Shown here: in pieces, positions 19,513 to 54,347 of the stretch
Position numbering within the stretch: the first letter of the stretch is position 1
Layout: the number at the start of each line of letters is the position of its first letter
Origin: Cytophagales bacterium
GTDB lineage: Bacteria > Bacteroidota > Bacteroidia > Cytophagales > Microscillaceae
Assembly (NCBI GenBank): GCA_013298075.1
Contig: JAAFJG010000029.1
Coordinates: 1 to 54,475, forward strand
Length of the DNA: 54,475 nucleotides
Direction of reading: 5' to 3'
Position numbers and translations under genes: made by a program
Notes under the pieces: generated by a model
Database searches by the model: none
What the model was told of the DNA's origin: nothing
Seen by the model: the letters and a program-made list of their open reading frames with translations, nothing else

Positions 19513-20820
19513 ATGAAAATATGTATTATTGGGGCAGGCTCATCAGGAATTGTGGCTGCAAAAACATTGAAACAACATCAAATTGATTTTGATTGTTATG
19601 AAGCGGGTTCAAAAATTGGTGGAAATTGGCGTTATCAAAATGACAACAAAATGTCGTCTGCTTATCGTTCTTTGCATATCAATACGTCACGAAAAATGAT
19701 GGAATATTCGGATTTTCCTATGCCCGCACATTACCCACATTTTCCGCATCATTCTCAAATTATTGATTATTTTGATGATTATGTAGCCCATTTTGATATT
19801 GTTAAAAATATCATTTTCAATACTAAAATTATTGATGTAAGTTTTACAAAAAATCGTAAAAAATACCTCGTTAAAACCGATAAAAATGAAACCAAAGAAT
19901 ATGATGGAGTAATTGTTGCCAATGGTCATCATTGGAATCCGAGATTGCCCGAACCTATGTTTGAAGGTGAATTTGAGGGAGAAACGTTACATTCTCATTA
20001 TTATCGCACTCCCGAAATATTCGAAAATAAGAATGTTTTAGTGGTTGGAATTGGTAATTCTGCGGTGGATATTGCTTGCGAAGCTGCTCGCTTACATACA
20101 GGAAAAGTATTTATTTCGACTCGAAGTGGTGCGTATATTTTGCCTAATTATATTTTAGGAAAACCTTTTGATGAATTATCAAAAAGTATTCCTCATACCT
20201 TACCTTTGTGGACAAAACGATTTTTGTTAAATACTTCGCTTTGGTTGGCAAGAGGAAAACAGGCTGATTATGGCGTGCCAAAACCAAAAAGACCAATTTT
20301 ATCTGAACATCCAACTAATTCGCAAGATTTGTTAAATTTGACAGGCAGGGGAAAAGTAACTATCAAACCAAATATTCAAAAATTAGCAGGAAAAGAAGTG
20401 ATTTTTGAGGATAATACAAAGGAAAAAATTGATATAATTATTTGGAGTACAGGCTATAAAATGACTTTTCCATTTTTTCAAAACGATTTTTTTCCTGCTC
20501 AAGAAGTTGAAAATTCGAATGATTTACAATTATATAAACGCGTGATTCACCCTGATTATAAAAATTTATTTTTTTTAGGATTGATACAACCTTTGGGCGC
20601 AATTATGCCATTGGCAGAAATTCAATCTAAATGGATTGCCCAATTATTGACCCAAAAAACTGCGTTGCCAAGCGATGAATTTATGTGGTTGGATATTGAA
20701 AAAACTGAAAATTCACTCAAAAAAAGATACAAAGAATCAAAAAGGCACACCATTCAAGTCGATTTTTATGATTATAAAGCGGTATTGGAAAAGGAAATGA
20801 AACAAATGAGAGCAGAATAA
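19513..20820 (+). CDS. Flavin-containing monooxygenase
   Basis: The 435-residue flavoprotein has FAD-binding GAGSSG at the N-terminus (ICIIGAGSSGIVAAKTL), then GGNWRY, the FMO signature FEGETLHSHYYRTPE (FxGxxxHxxxY), the NADPH-binding motif VLVVGIGNSAVDIACEAA and the downstream IIWSTGYK box. Such enzymes insert one oxygen into nucleophilic N or S atoms, or act as Baeyer-Villiger oxygenases; the substrate is unknown. The 28-bp gap after porU on the same strand suggests read-through, though a functional link is not evident. No signal peptide. Confidence 0.88.
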   Translation: MKICIIGAGSSGIVAAKTLKQHQIDFDCYEAGSKIGGNWRYQNDNKMSSAYRSLHINTSRKMMEYSDFPMPAHYPHFPHHSQIIDYFDDYVAHFDIVKNIIFNTKIIDVSFTKNRKKYLVKTDKNETKEYDGVIVANGHHWNPRLPEPMFEGEFEGETLHSHYYRTPEIFENKNVLVVGIGNSAVDIACEAARLHTGKVFISTRSGAYILPNYILGKPFDELSKSIPHTLPLWTKRFLLNTSLWLARGKQADYGVPKPKRPILSEHPTNSQDLLNLTGRGKVTIKPNIQKLAGKEVIFEDNTKEKIDIIIWSTGYKMTFPFFQNDFFPAQEVENSNDLQLYKRVIHPDYKNLFFLGLIQPLGAIMPLAEIQSKWIAQLLTQKTALPSDEFMWLDIEKTENSLKKRYKESKRHTIQVDFYDYKAVLEKEMKQMRAE

Positions 20821-20957
20821 TTTTTTTGTTTTTGTTTTATTATTTTAAATTTTCTGGATTAATAGTATTTATTTTGTCTAACTTTGGACTGACAAAGAAA
20901 AGACGTTTGATTAGGAATTCATTTTTGTTTATCATATCATACAAAAAAATAAAAAAC

Positions 20958-21551
20958 ATGGGATATAGTAATTATAAAAAACTAAAACAAGTTACAAAAA
21001 AATTTGGACTTGATGCAGAAAAAATAGATTTATTTAAGGAAATAAGCCTTATTGAGCCAAGCAGTTGGTTAAAAGAAACACTCCAAAAATCTAAAATGTT
21101 TCCAATGAATAATGAAAAGGTAAAATCAGAAAGGATTGTTTCACCTATTTTAGGGGAAGTAGCAGAAGCATTTTTTGATAAAGTAACTTTGTTTTCAGGC
21201 GAAGATTTACCTGTAGATTCTAACCAAGATTTATCAGGAGAATGTGATTTTTTGTTTGTGTTTGTTCCAAGAAAACCTTATTTAGAAAGTCCAATTATTT
21301 CATTGGTGGAGGCAAAAGATGAAGATATGGATTATGGCATTGCTCAATGTGCGGCTCAATTATATGGTGCAAAACTTTATAATGAAATGGAAGGTAAAAT
21401 ATTTCCTGTTTTGTATGGTTGTGCTACTGATGGCGTAGAGTGGAAGTTTATGCGTTTTGAAAATAATATTTTTTATATTGATAATCGAGTTTATACTGAT
21501 TTAAAAGAGATTTTGGGGGTTTGGCATTTTATTATTCAGTCTTATATTTAA
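20958..21551 (+). CDS. Predicted PD-(D/E)XK nuclease-fold protein, tandem copy 1
   Basis: The 197-residue protein starts at MGYSNYKK; I chose this ATG, not the one 132 bp upstream, because all three tandem copies share it. A nuclease-like core is visible: Glu in KSERIVSPILGEV (helix 1), Asp97 in SGECDF, Glu118 and Lys120 in SLVEAKDED, and Gln in YGIAQCAAQLYG, which together fit the PD-(D/E)XK arrangement. The name of the family is unknown to me. Homologues of this kind are usually hypothetical proteins that occur in clusters. It forms a tandem array with the next two genes. The nuclease-fold call is an inference; activity on DNA is not shown. Confidence 0.7.
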   Translation: MGYSNYKKLKQVTKKFGLDAEKIDLFKEISLIEPSSWLKETLQKSKMFPMNNEKVKSERIVSPILGEVAEAFFDKVTLFSGEDLPVDSNQDLSGECDFLFVFVPRKPYLESPIISLVEAKDEDMDYGIAQCAAQLYGAKLYNEMEGKIFPVLYGCATDGVEWKFMRFENNIFYIDNRVYTDLKEILGVWHFIIQSYI

Positions 21552-21612
21552 ACTAAAAAATATCAAAACCGAATCGGTATATATTTATAAACATACAAAA
21601 AACAAAGAAAAC

Positions 21613-22206
21613 ATGGGATATAGTAATTATAAAAAAATAGAACAAGTTACAAAAAAATTTGGGCTATCTGCCAAAAGACAAAGCCTTTTTTCTACCATTA
21701 CACCAAAACAAGCAAGCGTTTGGCTTTTGGAAACATTAGAATTGGCTAAATTAGTACCTCTTCGGAATGAAAAAGTAAAATCAGAGCGAATAGTTTCGCC
21801 TATATTACTTGAGATAGCAAAATATTTTCAAAGTAATGTTACTTTGTTTTCAGGCGAAGAATTAGAAATGAATCCGCAAGATGATTTATCAGGTGCTTGC
21901 GATTTTTTCTTTACTTTTGTGCCGCAAGGTGCATATTTAGAAAGTCCAATTATTTCATTAGTGGAGGCAAAAGATGAAGATATGGATTATGGCATTGCTC
22001 AATGTGCGGCTCAATTATATGGTGCAAAACTTTATAATGAAATGGAAGGTAAAAATTTTCCTGTTTTGTATGGTTGTGCCACTGATGGCGTAGAATGGAA
22101 GTTTATGCGCTTCGAAAATAATATTTTTTATATTGATAATCAAATTTATACTGATTTGAAAGAAATTTTAGGGGTTTGGCATTTTATTATTCAGTCTTAT
22201 ATTTAA
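21613..22206 (+). CDS. Predicted PD-(D/E)XK nuclease-fold protein, tandem copy 2
   Basis: 197 residues, the same length as copy 1. The N-terminal 110 residues are clearly related but diverged (for example TPKQASVWLLETLELAK against IEPSSWLKETLQKSK). From LESPIISLVEAKDEDM to the stop the protein and the DNA are almost identical to copy 1, including the putative catalytic Asp/Glu/Lys set. The spacer before it repeats the spacer before copy 3 (AACTAAAAAATATCAAAA), so the duplicated unit was gene plus spacer. The sharp border between diverged and identical halves points to gene conversion. Confidence 0.7.
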   Translation: MGYSNYKKIEQVTKKFGLSAKRQSLFSTITPKQASVWLLETLELAKLVPLRNEKVKSERIVSPILLEIAKYFQSNVTLFSGEELEMNPQDDLSGACDFFFTFVPQGAYLESPIISLVEAKDEDMDYGIAQCAAQLYGAKLYNEMEGKNFPVLYGCATDGVEWKFMRFENNIFYIDNQIYTDLKEILGVWHFIIQSYI

Positions 22207-22259
22207 ACTAAAAAATATCAAAAACGAATCGTTACAACATTTATCAAATATAAAAAAAT

Positions 22260-22880
22260 ATGGGATATAGTAATTATAAAAAACTAAAACAAGTTACAAA
22301 AACTTTTGGACTTGATGCAAGAAAAAAAGTATTATTTCCAGAAATTGACCTTGTTATGCCAAGCAAATGGTTAGAAGAAACGCTTCAAAAAGCCCAATTA
22401 TTTCCATTAACAAACGAAAAATCAAAATCAGAAAAAATAGTTTCGCCTATTTTGAGTGAAGTAGCAGAATTTTATTTAGATAGTGTTACTTTATTTTCAG
22501 GAGAAGACTTATCAGTAGATAGTACTAAAGATTTGTCAGGCGAATGTGATTTTTTTTTCATTTTAGAAGCCTATAAACCGTATGTAGAAAGCCCAATTAT
22601 TTCATTGGTGGAGGCAAAAGATGAAGATATGGATTATGGCATTGCTCAATGTTCGGCTCAATTATATGGTGCAAAACTTTATAATGAAATGGAAGGCAAA
22701 AATATTCCTGTTTTGTATGGTTGTGCTACCAATAGCCATGATTGGCAATTTATTCGTTTTGAAAATGATGTTTTTTATATTGATAATCGAGTTTATACCG
22801 ATTTAAAAGAGATTTTAGGGGTTTGGCATTTTATTATTCAGTCTTATATCAATATGGGTGACATTTTGAATTTAACATAA
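22260..22880 (+). CDS. Predicted PD-(D/E)XK nuclease-fold protein, tandem copy 3, with a MITE-derived tail
   Basis: 206 residues. It follows the same plan as copies 1 and 2 with the putative catalytic set kept (SGECDF, SLVEAKDED). A short diverged patch, NSHDWQFIRFENDV, replaces DGVEWKFMRFENNI. Copies 1 and 2 end FIIQSYI; this one reads on for nine more residues (NMGDILNLT) because a MITE-like element is inserted at the old stop position and supplies a new TAA at 22878-22880. The core is untouched, so the protein may still work. The element could also act as, or remove, a transcript end for the array. Confidence 0.7.
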   Translation: MGYSNYKKLKQVTKTFGLDARKKVLFPEIDLVMPSKWLEETLQKAQLFPLTNEKSKSEKIVSPILSEVAEFYLDSVTLFSGEDLSVDSTKDLSGECDFFFILEAYKPYVESPIISLVEAKDEDMDYGIAQCSAQLYGAKLYNEMEGKNIPVLYGCATNSHDWQFIRFENDVFYIDNRVYTDLKEILGVWHFIIQSYINMGDILNLT

Positions 22881-23065
22881 AAAGGCTATTTAAAGATGAT
22901 TAAGGTATTTTCAATATTTTTAGATGTTTAGTATTTTGGTTAAATTAATAAAAAATACTTACAGGAATTTGTCGTATCTATTTTTAATTAATGTTCTAAA
23001 TACAAAAAATTCTTTTATACTAAATTTAAGCCTTTATAGCCTTTACAACTATGTCCCCCATATTG
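22850..23065 (+). mobile_element. MITE-like element, copy 1 (216 bp)
   Basis: Bounded by CAATATGGGTGACAT (22850-22864) and its near-perfect inverse ATGTCCCCCATATTG (23051-23065). No transposase gene inside. An inverted-orientation copy lies at 54106-54320 and matches over the whole length. The first 31 bp form the 3' end of the third tandem nuclease gene. Flanks show only a 2-bp AT/AT match (or TA/TA outside one further paired base), so the target duplication here is unclear. Confidence 0.8.
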
Positions 23066-23106
23066 ATAAAAAGTTTACATTAGAGTTTTTTTATAAATTC
23101 TTATTT

Positions 23107-23355
23107 TCAAGTTTAATCCGACCTTCCGCACCCTATTTTTAAAAATGAGTATTATCGTTAAAATTCGAGAATTTATTGGCAAAATCATCTAATAATTTTT
23201 ATTTTAACAATAAACTGAATAAAAATTAATAAATCGGGTAAATTTTCAGATAAATTAAATATATTTTATGTGTAAATTTTTAAATATTTATATTTTTTTT
23301 GAGTAAATACTCTAAACTAAAACAGGGGTGCGGAAAGTCGGTTAATATAACTTGA
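23107..23355. mobile_element. Second inverted-repeat element, possible MITE or IS remnant (about 249 bp)
   Basis: The left arm at 23107-23134 contains TCAAGTTTAATCCGACC then TTCCGCACCC; the right arm at 23323-23355 is its inverse with a few indels (GGGGTGCGGAAAGTCGG then TTAATATAACTTGA). The interior is AT-rich without a plausible gene. No second copy is seen in the window, so its mobility is only inferred from structure. Confidence 0.5.
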
Positions 23356-23882: not shown

Positions 23883-24653
23883 TTAAAATTCTACCTCAAT
23901 CAAAACAGGACAATGGTCAGAAAATTTTGCTTCTGTTAAAATCACTGAACGCTTTACTTTGTCTATCAAATGACTGCTAATGGCTTGATAATCAATACGC
24001 CAACCTAAATTTTTCTCGCGTGCAGTTCCCCACGCACTCCACCAAGTATAATGATGAGGTTCTTTATTAAGATGTCTAAAAGTATCCGAAAAACCATTAT
24101 CAAAAAAATCAGAAAGCCACAACCTTTCTTCAGGCAAAAAACCCGAAGTTTTTGTATTTGCTTTTGGATTATGAATATCAATATCCTGATGACAAATATT
24201 ATAATCACCCACAATCAATAAATTTGGAATCTCTGTTTTTAAGGCTTGAATATACTGCAAAAAATTTCTATTCCAATCCATTTTATAAGTTCTCCTATCT
24301 TCTCCACTCGAACCCGAAGGCATATACACACTCAAAATAGATAAATTTTCAAAATCGGCTCTGATAACACGCCCTTCTGTATCATCAATCGAAGAAAATA
24401 AATCATATCCTTTGATTATTTTTGTAGGAATATTTTTTGTAAAAATTGCTACTCCTGAATAGCCTTTTTTTTCTGCGGATTGAAAATAAGTAGTATAACC
24501 CAAATCTTCAAATAAAACCACAGGAATTTGAGACGAATGGGCTTTTGTTTCTTGCAAACAAATTACGTCTGCATTGGTGGCTTTCAACCATTCTACAAAT
24601 CCTTTTTTGATGACTGCCCTCAAACCATTGACGTTATAAGTAATAATTTTCAT
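23883..24653 (-). CDS. xthA: Exodeoxyribonuclease III
   Basis: 256 residues from the ATG at 24653; the longer frame to 24719 adds an unlikely hydrophobic leader, and MKIITYNVNGLRA is the conserved start. Motifs of the AP endonuclease/ExoIII family are complete: NVNGLRA, ICLQETKAHSSQIP (metal-binding Glu), SVYMPSGSSGEDRRTYKMDW, LIVGDYNICHQDIDI (Asp/Asn pair), and the closing SDHCPVLIEVEF (catalytic Asp-His). The enzyme cuts DNA at abasic sites and trims 3' blocks in base excision repair. It is a single gene converging with the gene-free region; pafA is divergent from it. Confidence 0.95.
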   Translation of the reverse strand: MKIITYNVNGLRAVIKKGFVEWLKATNADVICLQETKAHSSQIPVVLFEDLGYTTYFQSAEKKGYSGVAIFTKNIPTKIIKGYDLFSSIDDTEGRVIRADFENLSILSVYMPSGSSGEDRRTYKMDWNRNFLQYIQALKTEIPNLLIVGDYNICHQDIDIHNPKANTKTSGFLPEERLWLSDFFDNGFSDTFRHLNKEPHHYTWWSAWGTAREKNLGWRIDYQAISSHLIDKVKRSVILTEAKFSDHCPVLIEVEF

Positions 24654-29107: not shown

Positions 29108-32100
29108 TTATTCAATCTCTATTTTATCAATTTCGTTCATCAACCTGTCCGTTTCACTAAGAGCTACAATTATTTTCTGATAATGTAAAATTTCCTCAAA
29201 TTCGAGATTTCTATTTTTTCGGTCTTTCAGCCATTTTTGAGCAGGTTGATAACCACCAATATAAAATTCCCAAGCGTTTTGTGGTATATTTTCAAAATAT
29301 TGTGTGTCATTGATATATACCCTGCCTTGAAAGGCGGGGCTATTCATGTTTTCGTAGCGTATTTTATTGACTATATTATTGCCATTGATTGGATATTGTG
29401 TCATAAAATGTGCTAATTTTGGGCTTTCCAATACATGTATTTCCCTAATTTCTCTCCCCAATTTTACCAACTGCCAAAATATATTTTTGTCTTTCGGATA
29501 AGGCACTCTTGGAAAATCTATTTTTAAAAATTCATTGTATTTCTCTCGATATGTGGGAGAATGTAAAACTGCATAAATATAATCTAAAATATCAATCGGG
29601 GCAAAAGTATTTTCGGTTGTTTCCTTTTCATTGGTAAAAATTAAACCTACATTCTCCTCTATTTGCTTTACAAATTGCTTATTCAAATTTGGCGTTCTTG
29701 TATTTTTTTGTTCAAATAATTGATTTACAAATAAATTCGTGGGTTGTTTTCCTTGTAATTTACTTTGTAAAACTGCTAATTCTTGTTTGAGATTTTGGAG
29801 GTTTTTTGCTTGACTTTTAAAAAGTTTTTGCATTTCTTTATCAGGATTCAAAACGCTCTCGAAGATATTTTTAATCTTTTGAAAAGATTTTTCAGCACTA
29901 TCAATCAAAGTTTGTAATTCCTCTTTTCTTAATTCTAATAATCCAATTTCATCTAAGTTTTGTTTGAGGTTGATTCGCTCTGGTTTATTTGTTTCAGGAT
30001 AAATATAGAGTGGAAAAATATTTGTTCCAGCTCCAGAAAAAGCATCACCAAAAGCCCTATCTACAATATATTTCGAAACCATTCCATGCTGAAAACCTCC
30101 CAATCCTTTGCATAAACGAGGTAAAATAATAGCAATATTTTCGTTTAATAAATTACCCATAATTTCCATTCTACTTCTTGATAAAAAATCATTATCATAA
30201 TAAATAAATCTATAATCAAATGGACGATAATTATAATTTACTATTTTATCCTCTTCAAAAAATAGATTTTTTTCTACCTTATATTCCCAAGTGGTTGTTT
30301 CGCTCAAACCATATTTTTGTCTTATCGATTTAAGGTCTAATTTATTATCTAAAATATTATAAATTCTATTTTTTAAATTTATTTTATCAAAATCAATCGA
30401 GATATTATCGACTTTTGTTTCAACACCAGAAATATATTTGGTAAATAATTCATTTATTTTAAATCCTTTTTCATATTCTTTTATTTCATCAAAATTTTTC
30501 GGTACAAAAAATAAATTAGGTTGTGTATATTTTAATTGATTCCAATGCAATGATTTGATAGAATTTTTATTTAAAAAACTGTATTTAAAATCTCTTTTCC
30601 CTTGTAAATCAAAATGAAATAATTGCCCTAATTCATTGTCTTTTTTCTTTCCTGTTTTGATAAAAATATTGATACTTACGCCTTGCATAATATCAAAAAC
30701 GTTTTGGTCAGGACTTCCATCAGCACAAACTTCTTTTTTCTTTGCGTTTCCATGTAAATCTAAAATATAAATTTTATCAAAACTTTGTAATAAACTTTTT
30801 CGCATTTGGCGATGCGTAATGCCATCAATAAAACTATTATTTGAAATATAAGCCAAAATTCCACTCCCATTTTTATCAATAAAATGCTGTCCATAACGAA
30901 TAAATTTGATATAATCATCATCTAAATTTATTTTTCGTTCATTCAAATCTTTCTTATAATCTGCCACCAAATTTTGAATCCATTTCCCTTTATTTGTACT
31001 ACTGACCGCATACGGCGGATTGCCAATCACACACATCACAGGCGTATCTCTTTTGGTATAATTGGCTTCATTCGCCTCCATACTCAACCAATTGGCAAAT
31101 AAAGAACCAACATCAGGATGGTCTTCTTCGAGACTATTAGTCAAATAAACCCTAAATCTTTGGTTGCTTGTTGGTTTGTAACCTGTTTGAGTCAATAATA
31201 AATCTAATTGCAAATGTGCCATCGCATAACTGGCCATCAACAATTCAAAACCATTCAAACGAGGCAATAAATGTGTTTCTACATAATCACTCCAAATGCC
31301 TTGTTGTCCTATAAAATTTTTGTAAATATGTTTTACAACTTCTGCCAAAAAAGTTCCTGTGCCTGTCGCAGGGTCAAGAATTTGTACTTTATGAACTTCT
31401 TGTTCTGTTTTTTTACCTTTTATATCAACTTTTATTTTTGTTTTACTTGTATCAGACAAACCTTGTGATAAATCAAATTCATCTTTCAAAATATCATCAA
31501 CGGCACGGACAATAAAATCAACCACAGGTGCAGGCGTGTACCAAACGCCACGAGATTTTCGTAATTTTGGGTCATATTCACTCAAAAAAGTTTCATAAAA
31601 ATGGATAATGGGGTCTTCCATTTTAGTTGATTTGCCATAATTTTTTAAAATCTCTGCTACATTACACGCCAAAAATACGTCTACCAAACTATCTACTATC
31701 CATTTGATGCGGTCATCTAAATCCAAACCTGCAATATAACCAAATAATTTTTTCAAAAATGGATTCGATTTTGGGATCAATTCATAGGCTTTTTGTCGAG
31801 TAAAAGTGGGTAAAGTTGGGTCGTGCAAACGAGCTGCAAACATTCCATAAGCAATCGTTTGAGCATACACATCTGCAAAACCTTTAGGCGTAATATCGTG
31901 AATTAGAATTTGCCTAAAAGCGTTCATCTGGTCTTTGAGCGTACTATCTTCTTGTTTGTCTTCATCATTTGTGAGTGCTTTTTCAATGACATCAGAAAGT
32001 AAACGCGCTTTTCCCGCCATCATTTCCGCTAATTTTTTTGAACTTTTGATGGTTTCTCCAATATAAGCACAAAAATCTTTTATTAAATTAATAAACGCAC

Positions 32101-32509
32101 CAAAATTATGAGGTAATGGAATAATGCTTCCTTTCTGAACTTCTGCAATGGCAATTTTTGTAATAAAAATACCATCAATATATAAATAAAAAACTAAATA
32201 ATCTGTAAAAATTATATTATTTAAAGACGCTTTATAACGCTCAAATTGTTCTTTATTGCCCGTTTTTTTTGCTCCTTCTAAGTCTTTATCACCAATATCT
32301 TTTGCTTCGATAAAACCGACAGGAATATCTTTTTTAGTCAAAATATAGTCGGGCGCACCGCAGGCTTGTCTTTTAGGTTCATTCGTAGCACTGATTTCAG
32401 GCACTAAACTTTCTAAAAGTTGTTGCAAATCACCCCGAAAAGTATGCTCTGTTGAGTTTCCAAGCGTATATCTTTTATTGATATTATCGATATATTCTGT
32501 TATATTCAT
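29108..32509 (-). CDS. Type ISP-like restriction-modification fusion protein, array copy C (3'-most)
   Basis: 1133 residues with domains in order. An N-terminal nuclease has Asp54 in GAPDY and Glu68/Lys70 in VGFIEAKD (PD-(D/E)XK). A helical linker follows, then an N6-adenine methyltransferase with GVWYTPAPVVDF, motif I DPATGTGTF (379-387) and motif IV NPPY (497-500). The presumed target recognition part spans about 500-870, and a conserved C-terminus follows (FAPIDILDYIYAVLHSPTYREKY). Known type ISP enzymes (LlaGI, LlaBIII) are about 1570 residues with a helicase between nuclease and methyltransferase; none is present here, so it resembles a type IIG layout. The N- and C-termini match the other two copies closely; from NPPYAVSS onward the middle is much diverged. 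Confidence 0.85.
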   Translation of the reverse strand: MNITEYIDNINKRYTLGNSTEHTFRGDLQQLLESLVPEISATNEPKRQACGAPDYILTKKDIPVGFIEAKDIGDKDLEGAKKTGNKEQFERYKASLNNIIFTDYLVFYLYIDGIFITKIAIAEVQKGSIIPLPHNFGAFINLIKDFCAYIGETIKSSKKLAEMMAGKARLLSDVIEKALTNDEDKQEDSTLKDQMNAFRQILIHDITPKGFADVYAQTIAYGMFAARLHDPTLPTFTRQKAYELIPKSNPFLKKLFGYIAGLDLDDRIKWIVDSLVDVFLACNVAEILKNYGKSTKMEDPIIHFYETFLSEYDPKLRKSRGVWYTPAPVVDFIVRAVDDILKDEFDLSQGLSDTSKTKIKVDIKGKKTEQEVHKVQILDPATGTGTFLAEVVKHIYKNFIGQQGIWSDYVETHLLPRLNGFELLMASYAMAHLQLDLLLTQTGYKPTSNQRFRVYLTNSLEEDHPDVGSLFANWLSMEANEANYTKRDTPVMCVIGNPPYAVSSTNKGKWIQNLVADYKKDLNERKINLDDDYIKFIRYGQHFIDKNGSGILAYISNNSFIDGITHRQMRKSLLQSFDKIYILDLHGNAKKKEVCADGSPDQNVFDIMQGVSINIFIKTGKKKDNELGQLFHFDLQGKRDFKYSFLNKNSIKSLHWNQLKYTQPNLFFVPKNFDEIKEYEKGFKINELFTKYISGVETKVDNISIDFDKINLKNRIYNILDNKLDLKSIRQKYGLSETTTWEYKVEKNLFFEEDKIVNYNYRPFDYRFIYYDNDFLSRSRMEIMGNLLNENIAIILPRLCKGLGGFQHGMVSKYIVDRAFGDAFSGAGTNIFPLYIYPETNKPERINLKQNLDEIGLLELRKEELQTLIDSAEKSFQKIKNIFESVLNPDKEMQKLFKSQAKNLQNLKQELAVLQSKLQGKQPTNLFVNQLFEQKNTRTPNLNKQFVKQIEENVGLIFTNEKETTENTFAPIDILDYIYAVLHSPTYREKYNEFLKIDFPRVPYPKDKNIFWQLVKLGREIREIHVLESPKLAHFMTQYPINGNNIVNKIRYENMNSPAFQGRVYINDTQYFENIPQNAWEFYIGGYQPAQKWLKDRKNRNLEFEEILHYQKIIVALSETDRLMNEIDKIEIE

Positions 32510-32536
32510 TGGTTTTATAGTTTAAATTTTAGACTG

Positions 32537-32544
32537 CAAAGTTA
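32537..32544 (-). promoter_or_regulatory. -7 box before array copy C
   Basis: On the minus strand TAACTTTG, 28 bp before the start codon, within a leader repeated in front of all three copies. Each copy can therefore be transcribed separately. Confidence 0.45.
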
Positions 32545-32553
32545 GTTTTTTTC

Positions 32554-35500
32554 TTATTCAATCTCTATTTTATCAATTTCGTTCATCAACCTGTCCGTTT
32601 CACTAAGCGCTACAATTATTTTCTGATAATGTAAAATTTCCTCAAATTCGAGAGTACGTTCTTTTCGGTCTTTCAACCATTTTTGAGCAGGCTGATAACC
32701 TCCAATATAAAATTCCCAAGCATTTTGTGGCACATTTGTAAAATATTGTGTTTCATTGATATATACCCTGCCTTGAAAGGCAGGGCTATTCATGTTTTCA
32801 TAACGTATTTTATTGACTATATTATTGCCATTGATTGGATATTGTGTCATAAAATTTGCTAATTTTGGACTTTCTAATACATGTATTTCCCTAATTTCTC
32901 CCCCCAATTTTACCAACTGCCAAAATATATTTTTGTCCTTTGGATAAGGTATTTTTGGAAAATCTATTTTTAGAAATTCATTGTATTTTTCTCTATACGT
33001 AGGTGAATGTAAAACCGCATAGATATAATCTAAAATATCAATCGGAGCAAAAGTATTTTCTTTTGTTTCCTTTTCAGTGGTAAAAATTAAACCTACATTT
33101 TTTGAAATTTTCTTGACTATTTCTGGATTTAGATTAGGTTTACGATTCTTATCTTTCTGCACAAAAAGATCTTGTTTACTTTGTTGAGGAGTTAGCAAAT
33201 TTTGAATTTTTTCTAACTCCTTTTGTAATTTTAAATATTCTTTTTCCTGTCCTTCATAGATTTTTTGCTGATTTTTATCAGGGTTTTTCACTCCTTTAAA
33301 AAGTTTTTTGAAGGCTGAAAAACCTTTTTCAAACTGCTCGATGATCATTTTTGTTTCTTCTAGTTCTAACTCCAAATCTTTTCTTTTCTCTACAGAAAGT
33401 TCCTTTGTTGGTTTTTCAGTTTCGGGATATAGATAGAGAGGACAAATAAATGGTGAGTTATTCATGGCTGAATAAATACTCTGATCTGTTATATTTTTAG
33501 TTAAAAAAATTTGACTAAATTTATCAGAACCACCTTGGGCAGGTCTGTTTATTAACAAACCTATGTTTTCTCCTTTCAAAAAATGTTGCATGACTTCATT
33601 TCTCGGCATACAATGAAAACCTTTTGATTTTCCTGTATAAAAAGTCCATTTATCATCAAAAGGTCGATAAGATAATTTGATAAAACTTCCTTTATTAGGG
33701 TAATGAAATTCTAAATCTTTTTTTGCTAAACTTATTTTCCAATCACGTGCATCATCACCCAAATTGAATTTATAGCGAGATTTTTCATCCTCCATCTCTA
33801 AAAAAGTTTCTATGGTATCTTGCAATTTTTGTTTACTATCATGAATGGTAAAATTATCTCTCGCTGTAACAATTCCCACAGAATTAACCGTAAATAATTC
33901 ATTGACTGCAAAGCCCAAATCATAATTTTTTTGCTCCTCAAAATTTTTCGGCGTGAAAAAATAATTCGGGGCAATATTCGGAATTTTTTTATATGGGACA
34001 GTTTTGAGACTATTTTCATTCAAAAAATCGTATTTTGTTTGCCTTTTGCCATACAAATCGTGATGAAAAACTTGGGCTAATTCACCTGTTTTTTTCTTTC
34101 CTGTTTTGACAAAAATATTGATACTCACGCCTTGCATAATATCAAAAACATTTTCATCTGCACTTCCATCAAAAGCAGTTTCCTTTTTTTTGCTATTACC
34201 ATGCAAATCAATCGTATAAATTTTATCGTATGTTTTCAATAAATTCCAACGCATTCCCCGAAAAGTTGGATTGTCTAAAAAGCCATGAGGATTGATAAAT
34301 GCTAAAACTCCACTGCCATTTTTTTCGATAAAATATTGTCCAAAACGCAAAAATTTAACATAATCATCATTAATCCATTTCGGATTTCGCTCTTGTAATT
34401 TGATTTTTCCTTCAGGTTCTTTTTTGTAATCTTCCATTAAATTCATAATCCACTGACCTTTATTTTGGCTTTCTCCACTATAAGGCGGATTTCCAATAAT
34501 GCACATCACGGGCGTATCTCTTTTTATTTGATTGGCTTCATTTGCTTCATTACTCAACCAATTGGCAAAAAGTGTGGTCGTATCCGCGTGGCTTTCCTCC
34601 AAACTATTCGTCAAATAAACTCTAAATCGTTGGTTATTTGTTGGTTTATAGCCTGTTTGAGTCAATAATAAATCTAATTGCAAATGAGCCATTGCATAAC
34701 TCGCCATCAACAACTCGAAACCATTCAATCGAGGCAATAAATGCGTTTCTACATAATCACTCCAAATTCCTTTTTGTCCTACAAAATTTTTATGAATATG
34801 TTTTACAACTTCCGCCAAAAAAGTTCCTGTACCTGTGGCAGGGTCAAGAATTTGTACTTTATGAAGTTCTTGTTCTGTCTTTTTACCTTTTACCTCAACT
34901 TTTATTTTAGTTTTACTTGTATCTGCTAATCCTTCTGGCAAATCAAATTCAGTTTTCAAAATACCATCAACGGCACGCACAATAAAATTGACCACAGGCG
35001 CAGGGGTGTACCAAACGCCACGAGACTTGCGTAAATTTGGGTCATATTCACTCAAAAAATTTTCGTAAAAATGGATAATTGGGTCTTCCATTTTGGTCGA
35101 TTTGCCATAATTTTTTAGAATTTCATCTACATTACAAGCCAAAAATACTTCCACCAAACTATCAACTATCCAACGAATACGGTCATCTAAATCCAAACCT
35201 GCAATATAACCAAATAATTTTTTTAAAAATGGATTCGATTTTGGTATCAATTCATAAGCCTTTTGCCGAGTAAAAGTTGGCAAAGTTGGGTCGTGCAAAC
35301 GAGCTGCAAACATTCCATAAGCAATCGTTTGAGCATATACATCAGCAAAACCTTTAGGTGTAATGTCGTGAATAAGAATTTGCCTAAAAGCGTTCATTTG
35401 GTCTTTGAGTGTGCTATTTTCTTGTTTATCTTCATCATTTGTCAATGCTTTTTCAATGACATCAGAAAGCAAACGCGCTTTTCCAGCCATCATTTCTGCT

Positions 35501-35979
35501 AATTTTTTTGAACTTTTGATGGTTTCTCCCACATAAGAACAAAAATCTTTTATCAAATTGATAAACGCACCAAAATTATGAGGTAATGGGATAATAGTTC
35601 CATTTTGTACTTCACCAATGGCAATTTTTGTGATAAAAATCCCATCAATATATAAATAAAAAACTAAATAATCTGTAAAAATTATGTTATTTAAAGAGGC
35701 TTTATAACGGTCAAATTGTTCTTTATTGCCCGTTTTTTTTGCTCCTTCTAAGTCTTTATCACCAATATCTTTTGCCTCAATAAAACCAACAGGAATATCT
35801 TTTTTAGTTAAAATATAGTCGGGCGCACCGCAGGCTTGTCTTTTGGGTTCATTAGTAGCACTGATTTCAGGCATTAAACTTTCTAAAAGTTGTTGCAAAT
35901 CGCCACGAAAAGTATGTTCAGTGGCATTGCCAAGTTTGTATCGTTTATTGATATTGTCGATATATTCTGCTATATTCAT
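32554..35979 (-). CDS. Type ISP-like restriction-modification fusion protein, array copy B (middle)
   Basis: 1141 residues with the same order: nuclease (GAPDY ... GFIEAKD), methyltransferase (DPATGTGTF and NPPYSGESQNKG), specificity part, conserved C-terminus. It is almost identical to copy A up to NELFTVNSVGIVTA (about residue 698). It then differs completely over roughly 700-830 (for example DNFTIHDSKQKLQDTIETF) and rejoins copy A at PLYLYPETEKP (about 840). That exchange covers the segment where the target recognition domain is expected. The 44-bp gap to copy C repeats the leader of the array. Both enzyme activities look intact. Confidence 0.85.
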   Translation of the reverse strand: MNIAEYIDNINKRYKLGNATEHTFRGDLQQLLESLMPEISATNEPKRQACGAPDYILTKKDIPVGFIEAKDIGDKDLEGAKKTGNKEQFDRYKASLNNIIFTDYLVFYLYIDGIFITKIAIGEVQNGTIIPLPHNFGAFINLIKDFCSYVGETIKSSKKLAEMMAGKARLLSDVIEKALTNDEDKQENSTLKDQMNAFRQILIHDITPKGFADVYAQTIAYGMFAARLHDPTLPTFTRQKAYELIPKSNPFLKKLFGYIAGLDLDDRIRWIVDSLVEVFLACNVDEILKNYGKSTKMEDPIIHFYENFLSEYDPNLRKSRGVWYTPAPVVNFIVRAVDGILKTEFDLPEGLADTSKTKIKVEVKGKKTEQELHKVQILDPATGTGTFLAEVVKHIHKNFVGQKGIWSDYVETHLLPRLNGFELLMASYAMAHLQLDLLLTQTGYKPTNNQRFRVYLTNSLEESHADTTTLFANWLSNEANEANQIKRDTPVMCIIGNPPYSGESQNKGQWIMNLMEDYKKEPEGKIKLQERNPKWINDDYVKFLRFGQYFIEKNGSGVLAFINPHGFLDNPTFRGMRWNLLKTYDKIYTIDLHGNSKKKETAFDGSADENVFDIMQGVSINIFVKTGKKKTGELAQVFHHDLYGKRQTKYDFLNENSLKTVPYKKIPNIAPNYFFTPKNFEEQKNYDLGFAVNELFTVNSVGIVTARDNFTIHDSKQKLQDTIETFLEMEDEKSRYKFNLGDDARDWKISLAKKDLEFHYPNKGSFIKLSYRPFDDKWTFYTGKSKGFHCMPRNEVMQHFLKGENIGLLINRPAQGGSDKFSQIFLTKNITDQSIYSAMNNSPFICPLYLYPETEKPTKELSVEKRKDLELELEETKMIIEQFEKGFSAFKKLFKGVKNPDKNQQKIYEGQEKEYLKLQKELEKIQNLLTPQQSKQDLFVQKDKNRKPNLNPEIVKKISKNVGLIFTTEKETKENTFAPIDILDYIYAVLHSPTYREKYNEFLKIDFPKIPYPKDKNIFWQLVKLGGEIREIHVLESPKLANFMTQYPINGNNIVNKIRYENMNSPAFQGRVYINETQYFTNVPQNAWEFYIGGYQPAQKWLKDRKERTLEFEEILHYQKIIVALSETDRLMNEIDKIEIE

Positions 35980-36006
35980 TGGTTTTATGGTTTAAATTTT
36001 AGAGTG

Positions 36007-36014
36007 CAAAGTTA
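36007..36014 (-). promoter_or_regulatory. -7 box before array copy B
   Basis: TAACTTTG on the minus strand in the repeated leader, at the same distance from the start codon as in front of copy C. Confidence 0.45.
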
Positions 36015-36023
36015 GTTTTTTTC

Positions 36024-39000
36024 TTATTCAATATCTACTTTATCGATTTCATTCATCAAATTTTCGGTTTCTATCAAAGCCGTAATTATTTTTTGATAAT
36101 GTAAAATATCATCAAATTCAAGAGTACGTTCTTTTCGGTCTTTCAACCATTTTTGAGCAGGCTGATAACCTCCAATATAAAATTCCCAAGCAATTTGTGG
36201 TACATTTTCAAAATATTGTGTTTCATTGATATAGATTTTTCCATTTTCATAACGTATTTTATTGACTATATTATTGCCATTGATTGGATATTGTGTCATA
36301 AAATTTGCTAATTTTGGGCTTTCCAATACATGTATTTCTCGAATTTCTCCACCCAATTTTACCAACTGCCAAAATATATTTTTATCTTTTGGATAAGGTA
36401 TTTTTGGAAAATCTATTTTTAAAAATTCATTGTATTTCTCGCGATATGTAGGTGAATGTAAAACTGCATAAATATAATCTAAAATATCAATCGGAGCAAA
36501 AGTGTTTTCGGTTGTTTCCTTTTCATTGGTAAAAATTAAAGCTACATTTTGAGAAATTTGCTTGACAATTTCTGGATTTAGATTAGGTTTACGCGTTTGA
36601 TTTTCTTGTATAAAAAGACCTTGATTACTTTGTTGAGGAGTTAGTAAATTTTGAATTTTTTCTAACTCCTTTTGTAATTTTAAATATTCTTTTTCCTGTC
36701 CTTCATAGATTTTTTGCTGATTTTTATCAGGTTTTTTCACTCCTTTAAAAAGTTTTTTGAAGGCTGAAAAACCAACCTCAAAACCTTCCAATTTTGATTT
36801 GGCTTCTTCTAATTTTAACTCTAAATCCTTTCTTTTCTCTACCGAAAGTTCCTTTATAGGTTTTTCAGTTTCGGGATAGAGATAAAGGGGAAAACCATAC
36901 GCACCACTGCCTAAATAGTGCAAATCATAAATATTTTTTGTAATAAACACATCTCTATAAGGCAGATTTTTGTTCATCATAATTTTTTCTAAGCCCAAAC
37001 CTATATTCTCTCCTTTCAAAAAATGTTGCATTACATTTGCTCGACTACGTTCAATCAAATTGATATTATTGTATAAAAAACGTACATCGAAAGGTCTGTA
37101 AGCAAAACGACGAATTACTTTTTTATCAATTTCTTTATACTTTTCTAAAATTTGTTTTTCTAATTCTGTTTCATTAAAGGCTGTATAAAGCGTGTCATTT
37201 GCCGTAACAATTCCCACAGAATTAACCGAAAATAATTCATTGACTGCAAAACCTACATCATAATTTTTTTTCTCCTCAAAATTTTTCGGTGTGAAAAAAT
37301 AATTCGGGGCAATATTCGGAATTTTTTTGTAAGGAACAGTTTTAAGACTATTTTCATTCAAAAAATCATATTTTAATTGCCTTTTGCCATATAAATCGTG
37401 ATGAAAAACTTGGGCTAATTCACCTACTTTTTTCTTTCCTGTTTTTACAAAAATATTGATACTCACGCCTTGCATAATATCAAAAATATTTTCGTCTGCA
37501 CTTCCATCAAAAGCAGTTTCCTTTTTTTTGCTATTGCCATGCAAATCAATCGTATAAATTTTATCGTATGTTTTTAATAAATTCCAGCGCATTCCTCGAA
37601 AAGTTGGATTGTCTAAAAAACCGTGTGGATTGATAAATGCTAAAATTCCACTGCCATTTTTTTCGATAAAATATTGTCCAAAACGCAAGAATTTAACATA
37701 ATCATCATTAATCCATTTTGGATTTCGTTCTTGTAATTTGATTTTTCCTTCAGGTTCTTTTTTATAATCTTCCATCAAATTCATAATCCATATCCCTTTA
37801 TTTTGGCTTTCGCCACTATATGGCGGATTTCCAATAATACACATCACGGGCGTATCTCTTTTTATTTGATTGGCTTCGTTTGCTTCATTGCTCAGCCAAT
37901 TAGCAAAAAGTGTAGTTGTATCAGCATGACTTTCTTCCAAACTATTCGTCAAATAAACTCTAAATCGTTGGTTATTGGTAGGTTTGTAACCTGTTTGAGT
38001 TAAAAGCAAATCTAATTGCAAATGTGCCATCGCATAACTTGCCATCAATAATTCGAAACCATTCAATCGTGGCAATAAATGTGTTTCTACATAATCACTC
38101 CAAATTCCTTGTTGTCTTTCAAAATTTTTATGAATATATTTTACAACTTCTGCCAAAAAAGTTCCTGTGCCTGTCGCAGGGTCAAGAATTTGTACGTTAT
38201 GAACTTCTTGTTCTATTTTTTTACCTTTTACCTCAACTTTTGTTTTTGTTTTACTTGTATCTGCTAATCCTTCTGGCAAATCAAATTCATCTTTCAAAAT
38301 ATCATCAACGGCACGGACAATAAAATTAACCACAGGTGCGGGCGTGTACCAAACGCCTCTCGTTTTTCTTAAATTTGGGTCATATTCACTCAAAAAAGTT
38401 TCGTAAAAATGGATAATGGGGTCTTCTGTTTTGGTTGATTTGCCATAATTTTTTAGAATTTCTTCTACATTACAAGCCAAAAAAACTTCTACCAAACTAT
38501 CTACTATCCAACGAATACGGTCATCGAGGTCAGGTCCCGCAATATAACTAAATAATTTTCGTAAAAATGGATTTGATTTTGGAATAAGTTCTGCAGCCTC
38601 TTGTCTGCTAAATGTTTCTATAGTTGTGTCGTGCAAACGGGCTGCAAACATTCCATAAGCAATCGTTTGTGCATATACATCTGCAAAACTTTTGGGCGTA
38701 ATATCGTGAATCAATACTTGTTTAAAGGCAATTAGTTGGTCTCTGAGCGTGCTATCTTCTTGTTTATCTTCATCATTTACCAAAGATTTTTCAATCACAT
38801 CAGAAAGCAAACGTGCTTTACCCGCCATCATTTCTGCTAATTTTTTTGAACTTTTGATGGTTTCTCCCACATAAGCACAAAAATCTTTTATCAAATTGAT
38901 AAATGCACCAAAATTATGAGGTAGTGGAATAATATTTCCTTTCTGAAGTTCTGCGATAGCAATTTTTGTGATAAAAATTCCATCAATATATAAATAAAAA

Positions 39001-39317
39001 TCTAAATAATCTGTAAAAATTATATTATTTAAAGACGCTTTATAACGGTCAAATTGTTCTTTATTCCCTGTTTTTTTTGCTCCTTCTAAGTCTTTATCGC
39101 CAATATCTTTTGCTTCGATAAAACCAACAGGAATATCTTTTTTAGTTAAAATATAGTCGGGCGCACCGCAGGCTTGTCTTTTAGGTTCATTAGTGGCACT
39201 AATTTCAGGCACTAAACTTTCTATAAGTTGTTGTAAATCTCCCCGAAAAGTATGCTCGGTTGCATTTCCAAGCATATATCTTTTATTGATATTATCGATA
39301 TATTCTGTTATATTCAT
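36024..39317 (-). CDS. Type ISP-like restriction-modification fusion protein, array copy A (promoter-proximal)
   Basis: 1097 residues with the same nuclease-methyltransferase-specificity plan and intact GAPDY/FIEAKD, DPATGTGTF and NPPYSGES motifs. The variable part (about 700-810) is its own, starting TANDTLYTAFNETELEKQ, about 40 residues shorter than that of copy B; it keeps FAYRPFDVRFLYNN, a box also found as YRPFD in both other copies. A further difference is loss of the short MNSPAFQGRVY stretch near the C-terminus (KIRYENGKIYINETQ here). It is the first gene of the array on the minus strand, so it probably carries the strongest promoter. Activity and target cannot be read from sequence. 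Confidence 0.85.
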   Translation of the reverse strand: MNITEYIDNINKRYMLGNATEHTFRGDLQQLIESLVPEISATNEPKRQACGAPDYILTKKDIPVGFIEAKDIGDKDLEGAKKTGNKEQFDRYKASLNNIIFTDYLDFYLYIDGIFITKIAIAELQKGNIIPLPHNFGAFINLIKDFCAYVGETIKSSKKLAEMMAGKARLLSDVIEKSLVNDEDKQEDSTLRDQLIAFKQVLIHDITPKSFADVYAQTIAYGMFAARLHDTTIETFSRQEAAELIPKSNPFLRKLFSYIAGPDLDDRIRWIVDSLVEVFLACNVEEILKNYGKSTKTEDPIIHFYETFLSEYDPNLRKTRGVWYTPAPVVNFIVRAVDDILKDEFDLPEGLADTSKTKTKVEVKGKKIEQEVHNVQILDPATGTGTFLAEVVKYIHKNFERQQGIWSDYVETHLLPRLNGFELLMASYAMAHLQLDLLLTQTGYKPTNNQRFRVYLTNSLEESHADTTTLFANWLSNEANEANQIKRDTPVMCIIGNPPYSGESQNKGIWIMNLMEDYKKEPEGKIKLQERNPKWINDDYVKFLRFGQYFIEKNGSGILAFINPHGFLDNPTFRGMRWNLLKTYDKIYTIDLHGNSKKKETAFDGSADENIFDIMQGVSINIFVKTGKKKVGELAQVFHHDLYGKRQLKYDFLNENSLKTVPYKKIPNIAPNYFFTPKNFEEKKNYDVGFAVNELFSVNSVGIVTANDTLYTAFNETELEKQILEKYKEIDKKVIRRFAYRPFDVRFLYNNINLIERSRANVMQHFLKGENIGLGLEKIMMNKNLPYRDVFITKNIYDLHYLGSGAYGFPLYLYPETEKPIKELSVEKRKDLELKLEEAKSKLEGFEVGFSAFKKLFKGVKKPDKNQQKIYEGQEKEYLKLQKELEKIQNLLTPQQSNQGLFIQENQTRKPNLNPEIVKQISQNVALIFTNEKETTENTFAPIDILDYIYAVLHSPTYREKYNEFLKIDFPKIPYPKDKNIFWQLVKLGGEIREIHVLESPKLANFMTQYPINGNNIVNKIRYENGKIYINETQYFENVPQIAWEFYIGGYQPAQKWLKDRKERTLEFDDILHYQKIITALIETENLMNEIDKVDIE

Positions 39318-53945: not shown

Positions 53946-54104
53946 TTACTCTTTTCGTATTTTGATTAGTTTTTCTTTGTCTTTTAATTCAATATTTTCT
54001 ATCAATTCCACGTTTATTTCGATATATTCTAATTGTCTTTTTAGTTTTTCGTATAGATTGATAGAATTAATGAACTCAAAAAAATTAGATTTATTTTCTT
54101 TATT
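53946..54104 (-). pseudogene. 3' remnant of an ORF interrupted by a MITE-like element
   Basis: Minus-strand frame of 52 residues ending LIKIRKE-stop, rich in Lys/Glu and probably coiled coil (NLYEKLKRQLEYIEINVELI). It is open exactly up to the inverted repeat of the MITE, whose last bases supply an in-frame TGA. Removing the element and one copy of the 6-bp duplication joins it in frame to a further stretch (IEKELKSN) at 54327-54347. No start codon is found before another stop further upstream. The family is unknown. Confidence 0.6.
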
Positions 54105-54105
54105 T

Positions 54106-54320
54106 CAATATGGGTGACATAGTTGTAAAGGCTATAAAGGCTTAAATTTAGTATAAAAGAATTTTTTGTATTTAAAACATTAATTAAAAATAGATACGAC
54201 AAATTCCCGTAAGTATTTTTTATTCATTTAACCAAATACTAAAATTTAAAAGTATTGAAAAATGCCTTAATCATCTTTAAATAGCCTTTTTATGTTAAAT
54301 TCAAAATGTCACTCATATTG
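54106..54320 (-). mobile_element. MITE-like element, copy 2 (215 bp), inverted relative to copy 1
   Basis: Ends CAATATGGGTGACAT (54106-54120) and ATGTCACTCATATTG (54306-54320), flanked by TTATTT on both sides (54100-54105 and 54321-54326), a 6-bp target duplication. It matches copy 1 over its whole length when reversed. No gene inside. Confidence 0.85.
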
Positions 54321-54347
54321 TTATTTGATTTCAATTCTTTTTCTATA

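Follow-up and report, generated by a model that had tools for sequence, protein, structure and literature searches.

The 54,475 bp contig JAAFJG010000029.1 of a Cytophagales bacterium (GenBank assembly GCA_013298075.1), hereafter the window, carries at positions 20958 to 22880 three small tandem genes, termed c1, c2 and c3, encoding PD-(D/E)XK-like proteins. We consider it probable that this triplet is an array of an uncharacterised stand-alone nuclease family which spreads as a bare gene, and that its copies were homogenised across their junctions and hold exchangeable centres. An earlier note, made from the sequence alone, had recognised three small PD-(D/E)XK-like genes here, and their exact coordinates, the invariant columns of the family alignment, the predicted fold and a match to the PADLOC model PD_DExK all bear this out. 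The genes lie head to tail on the + strand with all reading frames open, at spacings of 655 and 647 bp, and comprise the following segments (aa, amino acids):

20958..21551, + strand: c1, solo PD-(D/E)XK gene, 197 aa, identified by sequence, profile match and alignment
21613..22206, + strand: c2, solo PD-(D/E)XK gene, 197 aa, the copy whose structure was modelled (21613-22203)
22260..22880, + strand: c3, solo PD-(D/E)XK gene, 206 aa, the final 9 residues of which come from an inserted element
21012..21281, + strand: centre of c1 (codons 19-108), old diverged type, containing E53, E58 and D97
21667..21936, + strand: centre of c2 (codons 19-108), old diverged type
22314..22583, + strand: centre of c3 (codons 19-108), old diverged type
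21282..21666, + strand: homogenised tract made of the c1 back, the spacer and the first 18 codons of c2
21937..22313, + strand: homogenised tract made of the c2 back, the spacer and the first 18 codons of c3
22584..22846, + strand: homogenised back of c3, as far as the inserted element

Mosaic divergence within the triplet

A codon-level alignment revealed that synonymous divergence is not uniform along the three genes. In the back half (codons 109-197) nucleotide identity amounts to 95.5% for c1/c2, 91.8% for c1/c3 and 89.9% for c2/c3, and the synonymous divergence (dS) to 0.19, 0.18 and 0.30 for the same pairs, as compared to 1.03, 0.61 and 1.12 over codons 1-108. The pattern of diverged fronts and identical backs described earlier therefore stands as regards the homogenised backs but has to be amended at the other end, since the first 18 codons are also near-identical within the triplet (proportion of synonymous differences, pS, 0.05-0.25, versus 0.32-0.87 to foreign copies) and it is the middle, not the whole front, that is diverged. 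This centre (codons 19-108) is roughly as diverged as copies from other genomes, with a dS of 1.33 for c1/c2 and the same contrast between centre and back in the other two pairs. The spacers are duplicated too, as the note had reported, and the one following c3 has been replaced by an inverted-repeat element. A shared tract of about 380 bp extends across each junction, running from codon 109 through the spacer to codon 18 of the next copy.

When synonymous differences were counted only at codons specifying the same amino acid and compared between centre (codons 19-108) and back by Fisher's test, all three pairs displayed the contrast: 18/48 versus 8/81 for c1/c2 (p 2.5e-4), 17/59 versus 6/73 for c1/c3 (p 2.5e-3) and 20/45 versus 11/72 for c2/c3 (p 1e-3). 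In 24 foreign comparisons involving eight relatives, same-residue codons differed at frequencies of 0.28-0.57 for the centre, as against 0.20-0.44 for the back. In many foreign pairs, too, the back is somewhat closer than the centre, and ordinary conservation accounts for part of the contrast. The triplet backs differ at 0.08-0.15 of such codons, the foreign minimum being 0.20-0.24 (to the copy L026 of a congener). When the back was divided into segments, pS ranged from 0.16 to 1.01 in foreign comparisons and from 0.06 to 0.33 in the triplet, save for codons 150-170 of c2/c3, where a value of 0.47 indicates that conversion is patchy.

Trees of centres and backs were computed on 35 rows (more than 55% identity to c2, plus two outgroups), 19 of 54 rows being left out. 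A single clade of the c1, c2 and c3 centres was rejected (approximately unbiased test, p-AU 3.6e-19): the c1 and c3 centres fall within a seven-row group together with copies of other metagenome-assembled genomes (MAGs; support 99/91), and the c2 centre is placed elsewhere. The three backs form one clade with a support of 100/98 and reject the seven-row centre group (p-AU 2.4e-4). Similarly, the copies L019 and L035 of one other MAG have backs that group together (97/86) and centres whose grouping is rejected at 2.4e-4. This conflict indicates that old centre types sit in backs homogenised within a genome. Gene conversion within the array, or an equivalent recombination, is thus upheld both by the synonymous contrast and by the tree conflict. 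The companion suggestion of diversifying N-termini did not hold in the sense of positive selection, dN/dS in the triplet centre being about 0.3.

Comparable mosaics were found in a few further pairs. Over the last 27 codons, pS is 0.06 in the L031 pair and 0.23 in the L029 pair, both from other genomes, with amino acid identities of 1.00 and 0.85 respectively, versus 0.50 and 0.49 in the centre; the pair L068/L069 of genome G002 has a centre pS of 0.49 and a back pS of 0.20. Among 99 full-length copies, kept after copies with a short profile match were left out, mosaicism is most pronounced in the triplet, in L068/L069 and in the L025/L031 copies of one MAG. These copies yield 4753 pairs (494 within and 4259 between genomes), none of which combines a back pS above 0.4 with a centre pS below 0.41. 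An overlapping reading frame in the back half was considered and rejected: an internal +1-frame open reading frame (ORF) has an ATG within 12 codons in 68/98 members, yet its length varies from 2 to 68 aa, it is not kept across members, and foreign copies vary freely at synonymous sites.

Fold, family and relatives of the encoded proteins

No Pfam or NCBIfam model reached its cut-off for the three window proteins or for the 48 members aligned, the best Pfam hint being PDDEXK_12 (E 0.014, in 2/48 members), and no significant PDB sequence match was found. The PADLOC model PD_DExK matches the triplet proteins (E 4e-34 to 8e-38) under the label 'CAS associated'. On plasmid NC_019740.1 a hypothetical protein and csx7 are annotated beneath the match of a cyanobacterial homologue, and the csx7 annotation may explain this label. 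In the alignment of 48 members (11/65 ORFs were left out as partial or remote, as was L034), E58, D97, E118 and K120 are invariant, and E53 and Q130 occur in at least 90% of the rows. The nuclease layout E58/D97/E118-x-K120/Q130 is complete. Because the diverged centre holds E58 and D97, and the back only E118, K120 and Q130, the designation of the back as a putative catalytic half proved only partly right.

The predicted model of c2 is confident (predicted local distance difference test score, pLDDT, 95.4; predicted template modelling score, pTM, 0.91). Among nucleases, VIA-align matched it to BpuSI (Z 12.5 over 136 residues), DrdV (Z 11.7, 134 residues) and an HsdR fragment (Z 10.4, 122 residues), and more weakly to 1wdj (Z 8.5), presumably a Uma2/DUF820 relative, and to 3ot2, titled DUF820 (Z 7.3). 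The top matches, above every nuclease listed, are chains 5 and s of the mitoribosome (Z 13.8-15.2, with 188-194 of the 197 residues aligned), which we take to be mL37 and mL65; they span the N-terminal part too, at 8-13% sequence identity. We are confident from this prediction that the triplet proteins have the PD-(D/E)XK nuclease fold with a complete site layout, which was the structural check proposed with the original claim; neither outcome that the note had named as refuting it, uniform synonymous divergence or a fold lacking a nuclease site, was obtained. The enzyme would be expected to cut DNA, probably as a dimer.

In the genome of the window, a search with c2 found 18 places and a 48-row profile gave 20 matches, which are distributed over 14 contigs and include three remote ones (E ~1e-11). 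Elsewhere the profile found 31 matches in G004, 11 in G006 and 9 and 7 in two congeners, fragments and remote kin included. Since the family is dispersed in this manner and is multicopy in several relatives, the earlier view of a region prone to amplification was set at the wrong scale. The family occurs in 16/57 genomes searched, that of the window counted, and the 37 loci in named MAGs belong to Bacteroidota (31), to Chloroflexi or Pyrinomonadaceae (three) or to entries named only 'bacterium' (three). Plasmid searches returned 20 records, 12 of them with a query coverage of 80% or more; the 15 matches listed are 28-35% identical and all cyanobacterial, and some of these homologues overlap or adjoin genes annotated Uma2. 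No match was found among 50,697 phage records, and none of the 39 IMG/VR stretches that fitted a pattern encoded a relative. The family, which is patchy and consists mostly of open copies, is undescribed and unnamed; a literature search covering few subscription papers found no account of it.

Two further observations concern its members. The gene at 4878-5603 of L029, the first of a tandem pair, has lost the ExK motif yet is open, and may be a dead gene with a live neighbour. A second, remote subfamily of nuclease-like genes (NEDELK ... HEYK ... GQLL and variants) adjoins members in several genomes (L032 4116-4817, L038 4138-4830, L046 6977-7684, L031 5596-6249, L037 3678-4364 and L092 9249-9869).

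The nearest known kind is Rpn, the recombination-promoting nuclease (COG5464; Pfam PF04754 according to PMC5350276). PMC10327210 reports up to 26 Rpn copies per genome, with varying ends and no target-site duplications. Both families consist of solo PD-(D/E)XK genes that are multicopy, are gained or lost singly and form tandem arrays. However, neither the three window proteins nor the 48 members match an Rpn profile in Pfam or NCBIfam, and Rpn varies at its C-terminal domain whereas the present family varies at the centre and conserves its C-terminal half; for these two reasons it is not filed as Rpn. It further differs in a 3' edge near the stop codon and in having flanking duplications at a minority of sites. 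Rpn is also marked by a small antitoxin translated from an internal start, whereas the internal +1-frame ORF of the present family, 2-68 aa long, is not conserved among its members.

Uma2/DUF820 proteins, which are multicopy in cyanobacteria and many bacteria, share the solo PD-(D/E)XK fold, but no Pfam match links them to the family and the fold match is weaker than to Type IIG nuclease domains. The latter (BpuSI, DrdV) and the Type I subunit HsdR provide the best nuclease fold matches, whereas the family protein is free-standing, about 197 aa long and without a recurrent partner. The mL37/mL65 pair, the top fold match over nearly the whole length of c2, consists of eukaryotic ribosome parts, described in PMC8998825 as 'repurposed endonucleases' that form a pseudo-dimer. 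Sequence kinship with this pair (PDCD9, PF07147) was not found in the 48 members, and PF07147 had 0 matches in three family-bearing genomes.

Dispersed copies, their flanks and the surroundings of the triplet

The similarity between close copies is confined to the stretch from 31-77 bp upstream of the start codon to about the stop codon, and their flanks are unrelated, which delimits a spreading unit of about 610-710 bp that consists of the gene and a short leader. L058 of G001 and L069 of G002 are 94.3% identical over 672 bp, a stretch that opens 66 bp upstream of the start codon and closes 3 bp beyond the stop, compared with 81.6% and 86.7% for two conserved stretches of these genomes. Likewise, L097/L099 (the L011/L013 genes of the window's genome) are 93.6% identical over 669 bp and L068/L069 88.4% over 675 bp, and in both pairs the shared sequence begins 66-77 bp upstream of the start codon and breaks off 6-14 bp before the stop codon is complete. 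Of the listed pairs with at least 74% identity, inspected over 2 kb of flank where present and setting apart the window copies among themselves, only L056/L065 continues into a neighbour gene; it was inherited in place, the shared flank being on the upstream side. By eye, the leaders of close copies contain a promoter of the TAnnTTTG type, a known consensus.

Gene-free counterparts were identified in congeners: the two neighbour genes of the copy on contig C35 are adjacent without the nuclease in both, and one congener has a colinear gene-free site for the copy on C63. The copy on C121 (L098) lies in rearranged surroundings, and no clear orthologue of the gene upstream of the L065 insertion was found in G000, G004 or G006. 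Among 103 neighbours (two genes on each side, three genomes), most of them unannotated, no recurrent partner gene, such as the methyltransferase of a restriction-modification system, was detected, the largest group numbering 3. Inspection by eye of the regions flanking 32 copies from three genomes showed no terminal inverted repeats, no systematic scan being made. Family genes were co-oriented with their neighbours in 46/52 cases versus 176/238 (p 0.016), a weak excess that was not used. At about 2008-2323 of L110 (G001:C184), a congener has palindromic repeats where the window's genome has a nuclease gene, and at about 8759-8828 of L095 a short dispersed intergenic repeat, with many matches in both congeners, lies just upstream of a family gene.

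Direct duplications were sought by comparing 250 bp upstream with 90 bp downstream of each gene, at a threshold score of 50. This score was reached by 11/93 family genes versus 3/396 control genes (p 1.6e-6), and by 8/81 copies outside arrays (p 5e-5); shuffled sequences scored at most 34. The control set left out the three window copies, the Type ISP array described below, family genes and repeated loci, and earlier control sets that were impure (containing family genes and Type ISP spacers) gave 13/96 versus 7/246 and 11/93 versus 9/449 at score 50. At L045, 59 bp (95% identical), including the start codon and first 17 codons of preA, occur on both sides of the nuclease unit. Similarly, the unit at L040 is flanked on both sides by terminal sequence of sufB (50 columns, 80%), and that at L065 by terminal sequence of a yhcG-type nuclease gene (40 bp, 39 identical), with 30 columns at its orthologue L056. 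In 7/9 cases outside arrays (score at least 40), the downstream repeat starts 1-11 bp after the stop codon, and in these abutting cases 15-95 bp separate the upstream repeat from the start codon. The duplications at L132, L134 and L052 resemble, by eye, terminators or repeat sequence. As judged from sequence comparison, the family is multicopy and patchy, is present or absent as a bare gene and, in a minority of copies, lies between long direct duplications, which look like insertion with a long target-site duplication.

Within the window, the triplet and its neighbours are bounded as follows:

22847..23068, no strand assigned: dispersed inverted-repeat element, resembling a miniature inverted-repeat transposable element (MITE-like), which takes over the end of c3
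23118..23341, no strand assigned: second dispersed inverted-repeat (MITE-like) element, terminal repeat CCGACYTTCCGCACCC
19513..20820, + strand: left flank, flavin monooxygenase-like gene
23886..24653, - strand: right flank, Exo_endo_phos (exonuclease III-like) gene

The first element, 222 bp long, replaced the c3 stop codon and the following spacer, and c3 for this reason ends in the nine-residue tail NMGDILNLT. Its family has the end sequence YATCAATATGRGTGACAT, a second window copy at 54103-54323, 54 end-like matches in the genome (at most 2 mismatches) and 12 facing end pairs 196-204 bp apart. In the second family the CCGACYTTCCGCACCC ends are 206-208 bp apart, with 41 matches in the genome (at most 1 mismatch) and 0 in two congeners. 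The direct neighbours of the triplet are the monooxygenase gene and the exonuclease III-like gene. Homology to both congeners stops on the left at 20809-20827 and resumes on the right at 23888; since the two flanks are on different contigs in both congeners, the triplet sits at a rearrangement breakpoint.

The window also contains a Type ISP array (29108-39317) of three tandem restriction enzymes, i1-i3, with near-identical spacers, conserved ends and a diverged interior. Over aa 700-900, within the C-terminal specificity domain, i1/i2 and i1/i3 are 29-32% identical, versus 85-97% over aa 0-300. The note had suggested that the triplet mirrors this array at small scale, and both do have three tandem copies, near-identical spacers, conserved ends and diverged interiors. 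The likeness is incomplete: i1 departs from the other two over aa 500-700 and 900-1000 as well, i2 and i3 being close over 500-700, and the Type ISP proteins are large restriction-modification enzymes in which divergence peaks in a known specificity domain (PF18135). By analogy, target choice by the small enzyme may likewise reside in its centre.

Alternative explanations and significance

The reading we favour, a nuclease family spreading as a bare gene, would involve the following steps. Copies of a spreading single-gene unit would form a head-to-tail array, in which recombination between copies has homogenised the junction tracts of about 380 bp, the centres keeping old types with closest kin in other genomes. 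If the centre tunes binding, its exchange between conserved ends would make copies differ. Insertion after a staggered break followed by fill-in could duplicate about 30-60 bp and place the 3' edge 1-11 bp beyond the stop codon, the break coming from the enzyme itself or the gene being moved by host repair. The copies are most likely kept intact either by self-spread or by an Rpn-like defence role. The strongest version, in which the nuclease would nick the strands about 30-60 bp apart at the target and the gene would be copied in with a variable 5' edge, fill-in duplicating the target, making it a one-gene self-spreading element, appears improbable.

A number of results weigh against the favoured reading. 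The sole Foldseek match at E <= 0.001 has a template modelling score of only 0.57. No strong flanking duplication accompanies 82/93 copies, and L038, one of the seven abutting cases, is only 74% identical. The genome-specific variants of L056 and L065 are present in both repeat copies, implying that the repeats convert each other or arose twice. The colinear gene-free sites are too diverged to show a flanking duplication, a near-identical site that lacks the gene and has the target sequence only once was not found, and L059/L096 share both flanks, so that some copies are simply inherited. In the trees, a sister relationship of just the c1 and c3 centres is compatible with the data (p-AU 0.324), and an all-genus back clade (p-AU 0.089) and a back grouping of the JANYGM trio (p-AU 0.365) are absent from the best tree, yet unrejected. 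Mean back pS (bins below 75% central identity) is 0.61-0.68 within genomes and 0.67-0.73 between them; this difference is so slight that genome-wide concerted evolution of the backs was rejected and homogenisation is claimed only for the triplet and a few other pairs. In L097/L099 and L056/L065 the centre is slightly closer than the back (0.19 vs 0.30 and 0.17 vs 0.25). Lower conversion across a diverged centre could also explain the mosaic without selection.

Ordinary tandem duplication with uneven purifying selection, the back being conserved and the centre free without any recombination, would agree with the better conservation of the back half across the family and with the somewhat fewer synonymous differences of foreign backs than foreign centres in many pairs. 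It is scarcely credible given that the triplet backs differ at 0.08-0.15 of same-residue codons versus 0.20-0.44 in foreign backs, with Fisher p values of 2.5e-4 to 2.5e-3, and that the centre and back trees conflict (p-AU 3.6e-19). The duplications themselves could be incidental dispersed repeats or leftovers of tandem duplication, the copies having moved only by rare illegitimate recombination; the terminator- or repeat-like cases L132, L134 and L052 and the dispersed repeat abutting one copy point that way, but the ends of coding genes (preA, sufB and the yhcG type) are duplicated at L045, L040 and L065/L056 and the excess over control genes is marked (p 1.6e-6), making this account rather unlikely. 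Free-standing homing endonuclease genes, cutting at specific sites and copied by double-strand-break repair, would share bare-gene insertion and the PD-(D/E)XK fold with the family. Homing requires homology on both sides and leaves no duplication, whereas here close copies are found at unrelated sites, some between duplications, and no phage copies turned up among the 50,697 phage records or in IMG/VR; we regard it as highly doubtful.

An Rpn-like solo defence nuclease is a real possibility, if not the expected one. An anti-phage role would keep the copies, phage pressure would vary the centre, arrays would be kept for their diversity and spread would be passive, by host recombination. The multicopy, patchy and mostly open copies, the triplet dN/dS of about 0.3, the Type ISP restriction array about 6 kb away, the absence from the phage and viral records searched and the PADLOC label 'CAS associated' fit such a role, and Rpn genes behave alike and defend against phages according to PMC10327210. 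Against it, no Rpn model matches, the variable part is central and not C-terminal, no neighbour recurs (the neighbours not having been scanned with a defence library), and Rpn genes are reported in the same paper to be without flanking duplications.

In its predicted fold this nuclease family stands very close to the mL37/mL65 pair, and it or related proteins could be near the bacterial origin of that pair. As concerns mobility, no autonomous transposase with a PD-(D/E)XK fold is known according to PMC10327210, so that a self-spreading nuclease gene, if true, would be a new kind of mobile element, in which centre exchange between conserved ends would change targets. More generally, the family leads to a testable proposal for which part of the enzyme sets its target, and offers a handle on the unsettled question of how solo PD-(D/E)XK genes such as Rpn and Uma2 multiply: its edges near the gene ends, the gene-free sites of congeners, the duplicated ends of host genes and the arrays that mark an exchangeable centre.

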